A stretch of 35,968 nucleotides of DNA from Patescibacteria group bacterium (GTDB taxonomy: Bacteria > Patescibacteriota > Doudnabacteria > UBA920), in assembly GCA_023484515.1 (NCBI GenBank), contig JAMDAY010000001.1, positions 64,758-100,725 of the forward strand, written 5' to 3'. Position numbers and translations under genes: made by a program. The notes under the pieces are model-generated. The model was not told the origin of the DNA, did not search any database, and saw nothing but the letters and a program-made list of their open reading frames with translations. Shown piece after piece: positions 12,468-27,082 of the stretch. Each line of letters opens with the position of its first letter. The stretch's first letter is position 1.

Positions 12468-13433
12468 ATGTTAATAGACACCCACGCGCACGTAAATTTT
12501 AAAAGCTTTAAGGACGACGCCAAGGAAACTTTGCGGCGGGCTTTGGACAATGATACTTGGGTTATAAACGTCGGGTCGCAAATAGACACCTCTAAGCAGG
12601 CCGTGGAATTGGCGAACCAGTTTGACAAAGGAGTGTATGCGATTGTCGGCCTCCATCCCGAACACACGCATTCGCAATACGTGGACGAGGAAGAAACGCA
12701 TTTTCAGAGCCGCGAGGAAAATTTTGATTACAATTTATACCGCGAACTGGCAAGCAACCCCAAAGTGGTCGGCATAGGGGAGTGCGGGCTGGACTATTAC
12801 CGCTTGCCTCATGAACAAGTTCATGAAAATTTTCATGAATTAATTCATGAACAAATCAAAGAAAAACAAAAGTCCGCGTTCCGGCAGCAGGTAAAATTGG
12901 CAATGGAATTAAATAAAGTTTTGGTAATCCACAGCCGTCCGGCAAAGGGCGACGAGTCGCTGTACGACGATTTGCTGGGGATATTGGATGAAGAAAACAA
13001 CCTCTCCCTAACCCTCCCCTTAGAAGGGGAGGGGAGCTCCGCAAAAATTCTTGGGATAGGTGCGGAGCCTTCTCCTCTTTTGAGGGGAGATGCCCAGAGG
13101 GCAGAGAGGTTGCGTTTTGAAGTTCACAGTTATACCGGCTCCTCCGAGTATCTGCAAAAGTTTTTAGACCGCGGCGCGTACGTGTCCTTTAACGGTATTA
13201 TCACGTTTGACAAAACCGGCAATATGGAAAAGTTGGTAAAAATGGCTCCGCTTGATAGAATACTACTGGAAACTGACTGCCCTTACTTAACCCCCGCCCC
13301 GAATCGCGGCAAAAGAAACGAGCCACTGTTTGTGAAATTTACGGCAGAGAAAACGGCGGAGATTAAAAATTTATCAGTTAAGGAAATTGCAGAAATTACC
13401 ACTAAAAACGCCAGGCAGTTGTTTAAAATTTGA
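12468..13433 (+). CDS. tatD: TatD family hydrolase
   Basis: MLIDTHAHVNF, VGIGECGLDYY, VIHSRPAKGD, ILLETDCPYLTPAPNRGKRNEP. Confidence 0.94.
   Translation: MLIDTHAHVNFKSFKDDAKETLRRALDNDTWVINVGSQIDTSKQAVELANQFDKGVYAIVGLHPEHTHSQYVDEEETHFQSREENFDYNLYRELASNPKVVGIGECGLDYYRLPHEQVHENFHELIHEQIKEKQKSAFRQQVKLAMELNKVLVIHSRPAKGDESLYDDLLGILDEENNLSLTLPLEGEGSSAKILGIGAEPSPLLRGDAQRAERLRFEVHSYTGSSEYLQKFLDRGAYVSFNGIITFDKTGNMEKLVKMAPLDRILLETDCPYLTPAPNRGKRNEPLFVKFTAEKTAEIKNLSVKEIAEITTKNARQLFKI
12809..12856. repeat. Period-12 in-frame repeat inside tatD
   Basis: TCATGAA at 12809, 12821, 12833, 12845, encoding HEQV-HENF-HELI-HEQI. Confidence 0.85.
12999..13113. repeat. AACCYCTC...GAGAGGTTGC repeat, in frame in tatD
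   Basis: AACCTCTCCCTAACCCTCCCCTTAGAAGGGGAGGGGAGCTCCGCA...TGCGGAGCCTTCTCCTCTTTTGAGGGGAGATGCCCAGAGGGCAGAGAGGTTGC. Confidence 0.85.
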
Positions 13434-23228: not shown

Positions 23229-23316
23229 GCCCAGGTGCTGGAATTGGCATACAGGATGGTCTCAAAAACCATTGAGGATTTCCCTCGTGAGGGTTCGAGT
23301 CCCTCCCTGGGCACCA
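23229..23316 (+). tRNA. tRNA-Leu(CAA), CCA encoded
   Basis: GCCCAGG...CCTGGGC-A-CCA; anticodon loop CTCAAAA; long variable arm; GAGGG-TTCGAGT-CCCTC T-arm. Confidence 0.95.
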
Positions 23317-23318
23317 TA

Positions 23319-23915
23319 ATGAAGAGTAAAAAGATAAAAGGTAATAGAAATTTACAAGCTTATATTGTAGGTTTGGCTTTAGGCGACGGTAATCTTTCAA
23401 ACCCTAATGGCAGATCGGTCCGGTTAAGGATATCTTGCGACCTAAAGTACCCCAAGCTGCTTCGCCATATAATAATTTCGCTGCAAAAATTTTTGCCGGA
23501 CAATAAAATATCCGTAATCCGAAGAAAAGAAAGGTGTGTTGATATAAGTTGTTATTCCAATTTATGGCCGGAAATTTTAGGATGGGAAGCCGGAGAAGGG
23601 TCAAAGCATTTACAAGAAGCGGATATTCCTTCCTGGATTATGTCCAGGAAAAGTTATGCCATAGCTTGTTTAAAAGGTTTAATAGAAACCGACGGTTCAA
23701 TTTATAAAGACAGGGGTTATGACATGGTCATGTTCGTGTCAATAATTCCTAAATTGGCGAAAAGCGTTTTTAAGTGCATTAAGTTATTGGGTTTTCAGCC
23801 GCATATTTATTATTTTCAGCCAAAAGGCAAATATAATAGCAGTAAGATATTCCATATTAGAATTTCAAAAAATACGGAAGATTTTCTTAAATTAGTAAAG
23901 CCAATAAAGTCTTAA
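23319..23915 (+). CDS. LAGLIDADG homing endonuclease, starting 2 nt after tRNA-Leu CCA
   Basis: Two LAGLIDADG-like motifs: AYIVGLALGDGNLS and CLKGLIETDGSIYKD. Confidence 0.88.
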   Translation: MKSKKIKGNRNLQAYIVGLALGDGNLSNPNGRSVRLRISCDLKYPKLLRHIIISLQKFLPDNKISVIRRKERCVDISCYSNLWPEILGWEAGEGSKHLQEADIPSWIMSRKSYAIACLKGLIETDGSIYKDRGYDMVMFVSIIPKLAKSVFKCIKLLGFQPHIYYFQPKGKYNSSKIFHIRISKNTEDFLKLVKPIKS

Positions 23916-23919
23916 GATT

Positions 23920-24897
23920 ATGTCTGATGTAGATTTTCAGCAGCCCAATATTAGCATCCAATCTCCCGACGGGGCGGCTGCGGGGCCTGCGCCGGTTTTT
24001 AATGCCCAAGACCAATCCGGCAGCGTTAAAGAACCGAATGCGGCAAACACTCCCGTTACGCCGCCGGCTGACCGGGTTTCTTACGCGGATGCGCAGATCC
24101 AGGAAATAGAAGTGGCGAAAATTTCCCCCAACCCCTACCAGCCCAGGAAAGTTTTTGAACCGCAGGCCTTGCGCGAACTGGCAGATTCCATTAAAGAGCA
24201 CGGGGTTATCCAGCCCTTGGTAGTGACCAAAACCGAAACTGGTTACGAATTGGTAGTGGGGGAGCGCCGTTTTCGCGCTTCGCAACTGGCCGGGCTGGCC
24301 AAGGTTCCGGCCATTGTCAAGGAGTCCATGGTGGACCAGACTAAGCTGGAAGTGGCGCTTATAGAAAACATCCAGCGCAAGGAGTTAAACCCCATAGAAG
24401 AAGCCCAGGCTTACGAACGCTTGATGAAAACGTTCAATATGACGCAGGAACAGGTGGCCAAAAAAGTCGGCCGGTCGCGGCCGGCCGTGGCCAATACCGT
24501 GCGCCTGCTTAACTTGCCTGCGGAAATCCAGCGCGGGGTTATAGAAGGGAAAATTACCGAAGGCCACGCCCGCGCCATGCTGGGGCTGAACGACCCGGAA
24601 AAAATGCTGTTAATGTATAAACTGGCCGTGGAGCAGGGAATGAACGTGCGCCAGGTGGAAGCCAAGGTACGCGAATTAACCATAAAGCGGCAAATGGATG
24701 CCGCGGCGCCCGACCCGAAGCTTATGGCCATAGAAACGGAATTGCGCGGCAAGCTGGGCACGCAAGTCAAAATCCAGCGCCAGGGCAAGGGCGGCCGCAT
24801 TACCATAGAATTTTTCAGCGACGAAGAGCTGTCGGAAATTGTGCAGCGCATGGACACGGAGCGCAACAGCGGGGGCGGGGGTTATTTGACTGTATAA
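23920..24897 (+). CDS. parB: ParB/Spo0J chromosome partitioning protein
   Basis: ISPNPYQPRKVFEPQALRELADSIKEHGVIQPLVV, GERRFRASQLAG, ALIENIQRKELNPIEEA. Confidence 0.96.
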   Translation: MSDVDFQQPNISIQSPDGAAAGPAPVFNAQDQSGSVKEPNAANTPVTPPADRVSYADAQIQEIEVAKISPNPYQPRKVFEPQALRELADSIKEHGVIQPLVVTKTETGYELVVGERRFRASQLAGLAKVPAIVKESMVDQTKLEVALIENIQRKELNPIEEAQAYERLMKTFNMTQEQVAKKVGRSRPAVANTVRLLNLPAEIQRGVIEGKITEGHARAMLGLNDPEKMLLMYKLAVEQGMNVRQVEAKVRELTIKRQMDAAAPDPKLMAIETELRGKLGTQVKIQRQGKGGRITIEFFSDEELSEIVQRMDTERNSGGGGYLTV

Positions 24898-25002
24898 AAT
24901 GGATTAGGGTTTGCAGGCATAATTCCTGATTCCTAATTCATAATTCGGAAATCTTTTGTGGATAAACCGCCTTGGTGAAATTATAAGAATAAAAAATATT
25001 TC

Positions 25003-25062: not shown

Positions 25063-25090
25063 TTGACAAATGGCAGTTCTTTGGTATAAT
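25063..25090 (+). promoter_or_regulatory. Consensus sigma70 promoter
   Basis: TTGACA-16 nt-TATAAT. Confidence 0.85.
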
Positions 25091-25116
25091 ATTGGTAATT
25101 AGAGATTGTATTAATT

Positions 25117-25191
25117 ATGATTTCTTGCCACTCCCAAATTACCGTTGTAACCCGCGTCCCGTTTAAGGGCGTGCTTTTGGTTGGACATTAG
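25117..25191 (+). CDS. Putative 24-aa leader peptide MISCHSQITVVTRVPFKGVLLVGH
   Basis: ATG ~20 nt after predicted TSS; stop TAG overlaps first G of the antiterminator strand. Confidence 0.4.
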   Translation: MISCHSQITVVTRVPFKGVLLVGH

Positions 25192-25255
25192 GGGCAGCAA
25201 GGTAAAAGTTTGGAACATATAGATTACCTGCTCCCCAATGGAGCAGATTTTTTTT
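25191..25255 (+). promoter_or_regulatory. Antiterminator/terminator attenuator, leader A
   Basis: GGGGCAGCAAGGTAA/TTACCTGCTCCCC exclusive with CTGCTCC-CCAAT-GGAGCAG-A-T8. Confidence 0.75.
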
Positions 25256-25452: not shown

Positions 25453-25569
25453 ATGAGTTTTCAGATTTCTCAAACCATAGTGCCACCTTTAGACACTGGC
25501 AGGAATAACCATTGTTCCCATGGGAACTTTGGCAGGCTTGCCAGAATACAGCCAGCAAGCGCTGGCTAA
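25453..25569 (+). CDS. Putative tiny ORF, 38 aa
   Basis: GGGGAGGATGTAAG-ATG; MSFQISQTIVPPLDTGRNNHCSHGNFGRLARIQPASAG. Confidence 0.35.
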   Translation: MSFQISQTIVPPLDTGRNNHCSHGNFGRLARIQPASAG

Positions 25570-25633: not shown

Positions 25634-25781
25634 TATGGGTCAGCAGTGTGTTGCGGAACCGAAGAACGAGCAGGAACAAACAGAAGATGGTCAGGGTGTG
25701 AGCCAGCTGTTGCCGTGGGTTGGCTTGGATGGTGATCCTTATTCGGCGGATCTGACACCTTCCGAGCTGTACGCCGGTTAA
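25634..25781 (+). CDS. Putative small ORF, 48 aa
   Basis: GAAA-tetraloop hairpin then GGAGGAAAGACGT-ATG; MGQQCVAEPKNEQEQTEDGQGVSQLLPWVGLDGDPYSADLTPSELYAG; contained in the ORF-track frame ending 25781. Confidence 0.4.
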
Positions 25782-26147: not shown

Positions 26148-26318
26148 ATGAAGGAAGGGAAATGTATCACGTGCGGAAAAACCCTTAGTGGGTTAGAAAG
26201 GTACTTCGAACACTGTTCGGAGCATCTCATGCCGAAGACATTAGTCTTTCCGGCGAAAAAATCAACCCCTCCCATTGAGCGGAAGTCTGCTCGTGATTTC
26301 GACCAGTGTCGGGATTAG
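26148..26318 (+). CDS. Small Cys/His-rich protein, 56 aa
   Basis: GGGGGCGGAGGAGAC-ATG SD; MKEGKCITCGKTLSGLERYFEHCSEHLMPKTLVFPAKK. Confidence 0.5.
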   Translation: MKEGKCITCGKTLSGLERYFEHCSEHLMPKTLVFPAKKSTPPIERKSARDFDQCRD

Positions 26319-26519
26319 CATTTTTCTTCGCGGCGAGTTACCGCTTGCCGCATCGGTTGCCGAGGAGTCTCGTTATTTTGCAAAAGTCTTACCGGACCTA
26401 GCAATTATAACAAAGAGAGATTCCTCGGCTCTCTCAAAAATTTTATGTCAAAAATTATCCAATTATCATTCACGCGGTTATTATCCCCGTCGTCGGGGTA
26501 GTCTTTGAAATTGGCAAAA

Positions 26520-26582
26520 GGGGCAGGAGTTAAAAAGTTTTAAGCATATTTTTCCACCAGCTGCCCCAAAAGGGCAGTTTTT
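26520..26582 (+). promoter_or_regulatory. Antiterminator/terminator attenuator, leader B
   Basis: GGGGCAG/CTGCCCC exclusive with CTGCCC-CAAAA-GGGCAG-T5; shares AAAAGTTTNNANCATAT with leader A. Confidence 0.7.
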
Positions 26583-26590
26583 ATTTACCA

Positions 26591-26806
26591 ATGTTAAAGG
26601 AGAGTAAAAACGAAGTGGGTGTAGCAAGTGCTGTCAGTCAAAATGCGAAAGCGCAGACAGCAGGACAGAAACAAAAAACTGGGAAGCAGCTTGGCTGCGG
26701 ATTCCCAGGCGAGCCTATGCTGACTATGCTGGCAATAGCCTTTCATAGTCCGGATCAAGCAAAGGAAATTGTCAGACGCTATAACAATTGGCGTCCGTCG
26801 CGGTAG
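26591..26806 (+). CDS. Small ORF, 71 aa, after attenuator B (GTG at 26615 is an alternative start)
   Basis: Open frame; AAAGGAG lies just inside, upstream of the in-frame GTG. Confidence 0.4.
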   Translation: MLKESKNEVGVASAVSQNAKAQTAGQKQKTGKQLGCGFPGEPMLTMLAIAFHSPDQAKEIVRRYNNWRPSR

Positions 26807-26926
26807 GGTATACCCATTTTTTTCCCGGGGGCCCGCTGGATATTTTGATCTTACCGGATCAGTATCAAAGCAGTGGGTTCCCAGGGCCTTACTTAAATTA
26901 TTTTAGAGTTTACACATTTTTAAACA

Positions 26927-26967
26927 AAGAGACCCTTTGCGCAGCGCAAAGGGTCTCTTTGTTTAGA
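26927..26967. repeat. 20-bp-arm palindrome of the same architecture as 642-680
   Basis: AACAAAGAGACCCTTTGCGC-A-GCGCAAAGGGTCTCTTTGTT. Confidence 0.85.
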
Positions 26968-27012
26968 AGGTAATAAAAATACCACATACCCATTAAATTA
27001 AACCATTTTGGT

Positions 27013-27082
27013 CGGGCTGCTGGGAATCGAACCCAGACTACATCCACCCCATGGACGCGTACTACCACTATACTACAGCCCG
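27013..27082 (-). tRNA. tRNA-Pro(GGG)
   Basis: Minus strand CGGGCTG...CGTCC-ATGGGGT-GGATG...CTGGG-TTCGATT-CCCAG-CAGCCCG; no encoded CCA. Confidence 0.9.

Follow-up and report, generated by a model that had tools for sequence, protein, structure and literature searches.

The trp, his, phe and ilv leader-peptide transcription attenuators are the known systems for comparison (PMC2965389, PMC10272879). Most descriptions of leader-peptide attenuation come from Proteobacteria, Actinobacteria and some Firmicutes (PMC2965389), and the ermC leader senses a global slowdown in translation (PMC2965389). No attenuation paper for Patescibacteria, the candidate phyla radiation or Doudnabacteria was found in the open-licence literature. 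Gene regulation in Patescibacteria is almost unstudied, and nearly all members are uncultured. In ermK-type and other translation-slowdown attenuators, the leader has no run of regulatory codons, and slow ribosomes turn the gene on.

An attenuator element was recognized downstream from parB in the window, the 35,968-nt stretch of DNA analyzed here, which forms positions 64758-100725 of one contig in a 1.3-Mb assembly (hereafter, the own genome). Like the trp, his, phe and ilv attenuators, it combines a short ORF, alternative 1:2, 2:3 and 3:4 helices, a strand 2 that a terminating ribosome would hide, and an intrinsic terminator. The parB attenuator is real and conserved; it is new as a family and for the phylum, and its basic mechanism is ordinary. 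It is probably a trp-type leader-peptide transcription attenuator which would be on when translation initiation works but elongation lags, and the signal is most likely general slowing. The architecture, its conservation, the covariation and the modelled switching can all be read from the sequences of the loci.

The parB locus, its promoter and the downstream small genes

The parB gene (23920-24897, plus strand), with the Pfam domains ParB_N, HTH_ParB and ParB_C, is the constant upstream neighbor of the element. ParB searches indicated proteins from Doudnabacteria MAGs, with 71-83% identity, as the closest relatives, which assigns the window to Candidatus Doudnabacteria (CPR/Patescibacteria). 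From parB to a minus-strand tRNA gene (27012-27082), about 2.1 kb is free of any long gene. On the other side of parB, an ORF with LAGLIDADG-like domains (23235-23915) is placed between parB and another tRNA gene (23229-23313); its true start is probably later than the listed one, because the listed start falls within this tRNA gene. A long near-perfect palindrome with T-rich flanks (26916-26974), between the small ORFs and the minus-strand tRNA gene, is likely to be a bidirectional terminator. A replication origin beside the element was considered and rejected, as GC skew keeps one sign along the contig.

A sigma-70-type promoter, TTGACA-16-TATAAT, is present at 25063-25090 on the plus strand and is kept in relatives; the consensus promoter recognized there by an earlier sequence-only reading scores 12/12. 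A perfect DnaA-box-like site, TTATCCACA on the minus strand (TGTGGATAA on the plus strand), is found at 24957-24965, 97 nt upstream from the -35 box. The DnaA-box-like TGTGGA(A/T)AA is observed at a fixed 5-6 nt upstream from the -35 box in nine of 15 loci (L004, L006, L007, L008, L009, L010, L012, L041, and L057). As a suggestion only, the promoter might be controlled by DnaA or another factor. The distance from the -10 box to the ATG is 26 nt in the window and 10-34 nt in relatives. Several further own-genome elements have only 6-9 nt here and would thus have leaderless or very short 5′ ends.

No gene for biosynthesis, transport or a tRNA synthetase was found downstream from the element, where orphan small ORFs alone precede the tRNA gene. 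All four annotated small ORFs are on the plus strand. The first (25453-25569, 38 aa) follows the Shine-Dalgarno sequence GGGGAGG and has no detected relatives. The next one (25635-25781, 48 aa) follows GGAGG, and a protein search among 60 relatives revealed no homologue. A 56-aa ORF (26148-26318) has a zinc-finger-like CxxC...HCxxH pattern, and the relatives have zinc ribbons with two CxxC motifs here. The last (26591-26806, 71 aa) is located after a second element and has no Pfam match. Across the family loci, ORFs of 40-110 aa preceded by a Shine-Dalgarno sequence within 1.3 kb downstream number 27 in sense versus 2 in antisense orientation. Eight of these 27 downstream ORFs encode two-CxxC zinc ribbons, compared with 5/612 for the own genome (p = 4e-9). 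A zinc ribbon is present downstream in 6 of 14 loci, and looser Cys/His patterns are seen in others, including the window. Pfam and PHROGs searches with the small proteins indicated no family beyond weak zinc-ribbon scores.

The leader ORF, the RNA helices and their conservation

The leader ORF (25117-25191, plus strand) consists of 24 codons and TAG and encodes MISCHSQITVVTRVPFKGVLLVGH, with an invariant Lys at codon 17. The sequence-only reading had already proposed this 24-codon ORF with its TAG stop, and it is indeed present at this position. A clear Shine-Dalgarno site is absent from the leader ORF of the window, whereas the downstream small ORFs have strong ones. The distance from the ATG to the invariant Lys codon is 48, 51, 54 or 57 nt, a multiple of three in 14 of 14 loci, and the reading frame is preserved despite length differences of 3, 6 or 9 nt. 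The leader ORF is predicted to be translated.

The alternative structures consist of RNA segments on the plus strand. Strand 1 (25134-25153, codons ~6-13) is the anti-antiterminator. It is followed within the ORF by an inner hairpin, GCG.CCC/GGG.CGT (25154-25172), whose conserved UUUA..UAAGG loop contains the invariant AAG. Strand 2 (25191-25213), at and just past the stop codon, pairs with either strand 1 or strand 3. Strand 3 (25220-25236) is the 3′ strand of the antiterminator and includes the 5′ arm of the terminator (25228-25234). The intrinsic terminator CTGCTCC-CCAAT-GGAGCAG-A-T8 was correctly identified in the sequence-only reading and lies at 25228-25255, with a 7-bp stem, the loop CCAAT and a dG of -10.5. 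The pairing of GGGGCAGCAAGGTAA (25191-25205) with TTACCTGCTCCCC (25224-25236), proposed there as exclusive with the 5′ arm of the terminator, is likewise confirmed; pairing, swap tests and folding all indicate that antiterminator and terminator are mutually exclusive. The extent given to the element, 25191-25255, needs revision: the parts were located correctly, and the whole is longer, about 25063-25255. That reading did not include the 1:2 anti-antiterminator or the inner hairpin, nor the small genes downstream or the family. In the 1:2 state of the window, 25134-25153 is paired with 25192-25213, and with strand 1 added the predicted helices make up a complete trp-type 1:2/2:3/3:4 attenuator.

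A BLASTN-type DNA search for relatives of the leader detected none, with matches to the promoter only (L002 and L003). Relatives were recognized 3′ of parB by their shared arrangement: a promoter, a short ORF soon after the -10 box, a hairpin within the ORF, then a strand rich in G at the stop codon followed by its complement, and finally a terminator. A covariance model built from 13 loci has matches in 14 of the 22 genomes of the family, with E-values of 2.6e-9 or lower, and all of them are downstream from parB. A weak match (E = 0.003) is also beside parB, in one genome from another family of the order. Among the eight family genomes that lack a match, three have completeness or contiguity problems (G012, G013, and G014). 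The weak covariance hits L079, L082 and L171 were rejected as false, since they lack the promoter-plus-ORF arrangement. No match to Rfam, including T-box, riboswitch and amino-acid leader families, was obtained above the gathering cut-off or among weak hits.

Column covariation in a MAFFT alignment with a hand-given structure is modest, and a structure slid by +1 scores about equally; RNAalifold predicted no pairs from this alignment. These alignment-based methods perform weakly because bulges put the loci out of register with one another, and strand-swap tests were adopted for this reason. Partners were permuted 100,000 times among the loci, with relatedness uncorrected. The antiterminator strands from 14 loci have a sum of -238.3 kcal/mol with their own partners, compared with -221.7 kcal/mol for the lowest permuted sum, and the own partners beat all 100,000 permutations (0/100,000). 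The conservation of the alternative pairing, which the sequence-only reading had named as a check, is thereby supported. The swap tests gave 8/100,000 for the 1:2 helix, 1/100,000 for the inner hairpin and 0/100,000 for the terminator (12 loci), and the fold of the window leader also contains the 1:2 helix. All helices thus appear to covary, as cognate strands outpair swapped ones and at most 8 of 100,000 permutations are equally good. In every one of the 14 loci, a ribosome on the stop codon would cover or adjoin the 5′ strand of the antiterminator (L016 was read by eye).

Switching was modelled by equilibrium folding of the RNA left exposed by the ribosome, and the switch score is the product of the state probabilities; the figures below are therefore equilibrium values, and the actual competition is kinetic. 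In the window, the terminator has a probability of 0.90 without a ribosome and 0.99 with a ribosome at the stop codon, and the antiterminator has a mean of 0.97 with a ribosome stalled at codons 3-21. The score of the window leader was reached by 1 of 60 dinucleotide shuffles. This figure, a detector scan of the own genome and the conserved layout in 14 genomes place the arrangement beyond chance. Over 14 loci the mean score is 0.56, versus 0.061 when the leader is dinucleotide-shuffled and the terminator left intact; the highest of 60 shuffle-set means is 0.128. Without a ribosome, the terminator probability is at least 0.79 in 13 of 14 loci, in line with the anti-antiterminator, and with a ribosome at the stop codon it is at least 0.94, in line with masking of strand 2. 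The exception is L011, which folds into the antiterminator without a ribosome (terminator probability 0.24) and misses the default-off state. L004 (0.01) and L008 (0.06), which have strong terminators, switch poorly at equilibrium, and kinetic trapping alone would rescue them.

Proposed mechanism and alternative explanations

The mechanism proposed here is a prediction with respect to transcription, leader translation, the direction of the response, its signal and what the small proteins do. Transcription would start near 25097. On a leader without a ribosome, strand 1 would pair with strand 2 and so sequester it, and the terminator would form. A ribosome that is slow or stalled at about codons 3-21 would mask strand 1, and the 2:3 antiterminator would allow readthrough into the small genes. 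A ribosome that quickly reaches the stop codon would mask strand 2, leading to termination. A leader-peptide attenuator whose antiterminator is blocked by a ribosome at the stop codon was the interpretation given in the sequence-only reading, and the conserved pairing in 14 loci and the position of strand 2 support it. The small-gene operon would be on when initiation works and elongation lags, because a stalled ribosome leads to readthrough and a fast one to termination. The likely signal would be a general slowing of translation, such as by shortage of charged tRNA, slow growth or ribosome-targeting compounds. General slowing is likelier than a single amino acid, because stalling would be effective over a broad zone and none of the codons is strongly over-represented. 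If attenuation is the right reading, general ribosome slowing is on balance the probable signal.

Amino-acid-specific attenuation, in which the leader gauges one charged tRNA (Val, branched-chain or Phe) like the trp, ilv and pheST leaders, is unlikely. The stall zone is enriched in Val (13.0% vs. 6.7%, p 3e-5) and, to a mild degree, in Phe (8.7% vs. 4.7%), but the pyrimidine-rich strand 1 and the hairpin also impose these residues. Biased leaders do occur elsewhere (Met in L100, Ile in L104b, the I/V-rich type B, and Phe upstream from pheST in two genomes that belong to another family), whereas neither a run nor a cluster of codons for one regulating amino acid was found in the family A leaders. 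For the window peptide, the lack of a run noted in the sequence-only reading agrees with the composition check. The sole invariant residue is one Lys, encoded by AAG in the loop of the inner hairpin, and none of the genes downstream is for biosynthesis, transport or a synthetase. An erm-type sensor, in which a drug or metabolite acts with the nascent peptide to arrest the ribosome at one defined codon, is improbable to a greater degree. Several leaders share motif-like similarity (I-I-V-L-P-V and F-T-K-A-V-x-W), and only 1 of 323 residues in the leader peptides is acidic (Asp/Glu). However, the conserved words follow the RNA pairing: HNSI corresponds to strand 1, and PV and KA to the inner hairpin. 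The apparent peptide motif is in part an RNA constraint. The leader Trp is missing or out of frame in the window, L005, L007 and L047; conservation is therefore weaker in the peptide than in the RNA.

Two other explanations dispense with the role of the leader ORF or of readthrough. The terminated RNA of ~155 nt could be the product itself, as a small or dual-function RNA with incidental readthrough. Its strong promoter, strong terminator and compact transcript fit this idea, as does its absence from Rfam even at low thresholds. Such an RNA needs neither an in-frame ORF nor a 2:3 helix acting against its own terminator, as seen in 14 loci, and the downstream coding is strongly strand-biased; this explanation is very unlikely. 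The chance that the leader is a riboswitch or a protein-bound RNA with a fortuitous ORF is slighter still. Although the conserved inner hairpin with its loop could bind a ligand or a protein, the leader varies in length ahead of the Lys codon only by multiples of three, strand 2 is at the stop codon in all loci, and no riboswitch, T-box or leader family in Rfam matches. The leader-peptide attenuator is the preferred reading in the following comparison.

Related elements and comparison with known systems

A second, weaker leader/terminator element, designated as type B, is present in the window at 26445-26582 on the plus strand (covariance E 0.01-0.047; switch score 0.26 vs. 0.03) and is akin to the second elements in L011 and L044. 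An I/V-rich peptide resembling those of L011 and L044 is encoded in the frame 26447-26533, one base off the sole ATG (26445), at a run of five A. This offset may represent an assembly error, decay or slippage. The switch scores of the paralogs L011b, L044b and L095 are uninformative, as the automatic choice of the terminator failed.

Similar units are found in the own genome (L100, L163, and L104), and the switch scores beat shuffles for L163, L100 and L104a. A detector combining a promoter, an ATG ORF, a terminator and antipairing revealed 14 ATG hits in the own genome versus 0, 5 and 1 in three Markov copies. L100 (minus strand, ATG at 13290) and L163 (minus strand, ATG at 1663) have Met-rich leaders (MSAMYAVKIMMEMLMPPIMG and MNQLKFAKTEMMMQLMNLNRKGWI), which precede a zinc-ribbon ORF and a cupin gene. 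Met accounts for 6 of the 19 residues after the start in L100, and Ile for 6 of 24 in L104b. L104 contains two tandem leader-terminator units on the plus strand, at 173 and 1315, each followed by an orphan small ORF. Other Patescibacteria families yielded weak matches as well. Among them, in two Patescibacteria genomes from one other family, multi-Phe leader ORFs are followed by a terminator and pheS (L172, 1501-1856; L173, reverse strand). These related-looking elements are candidate pheST (pheM-type) attenuators; no Phe leader was found upstream from pheS in 28 other loci scanned.

A wider class of such units across Patescibacteria is plausible, not proven. A more far-reaching proposal is that Patescibacteria employ near-leaderless leader-ORF attenuators, many in number and repeatedly arisen, as a standard means of control that reads ribosome progress in place of protein regulators, and that family A, via the DnaA-box-like promoter site, couples this to lineage-specific zinc-ribbon proteins next to parB; it is tentative and rather doubtful at present. 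The conserved family would carry transcription-translation coupling as a regulatory signal into Patescibacteria, a large group. The parB element also offers access to orphan small proteins whose rapid change hides them from recognition by homology, and it is portable and testable by a reporter in E. coli.

The parB element differs from the trp, his, phe and ilv attenuators in lacking a regulatory codon run, in having orphan zinc-ribbon genes instead of an amino-acid gene downstream, in its Patescibacteria host, and in the weak or absent Shine-Dalgarno sequence of the leader. Unlike the pheST attenuator, it is located away from pheST and lacks a run of Phe. Compared with the erm systems, it has no resistance gene downstream and its peptide is poorly conserved, and ermC acts on translation. 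It is similar to the ermK-type attenuators in that its leader has no regulatory codon run and slow ribosomes, as proposed here, would switch the gene on.
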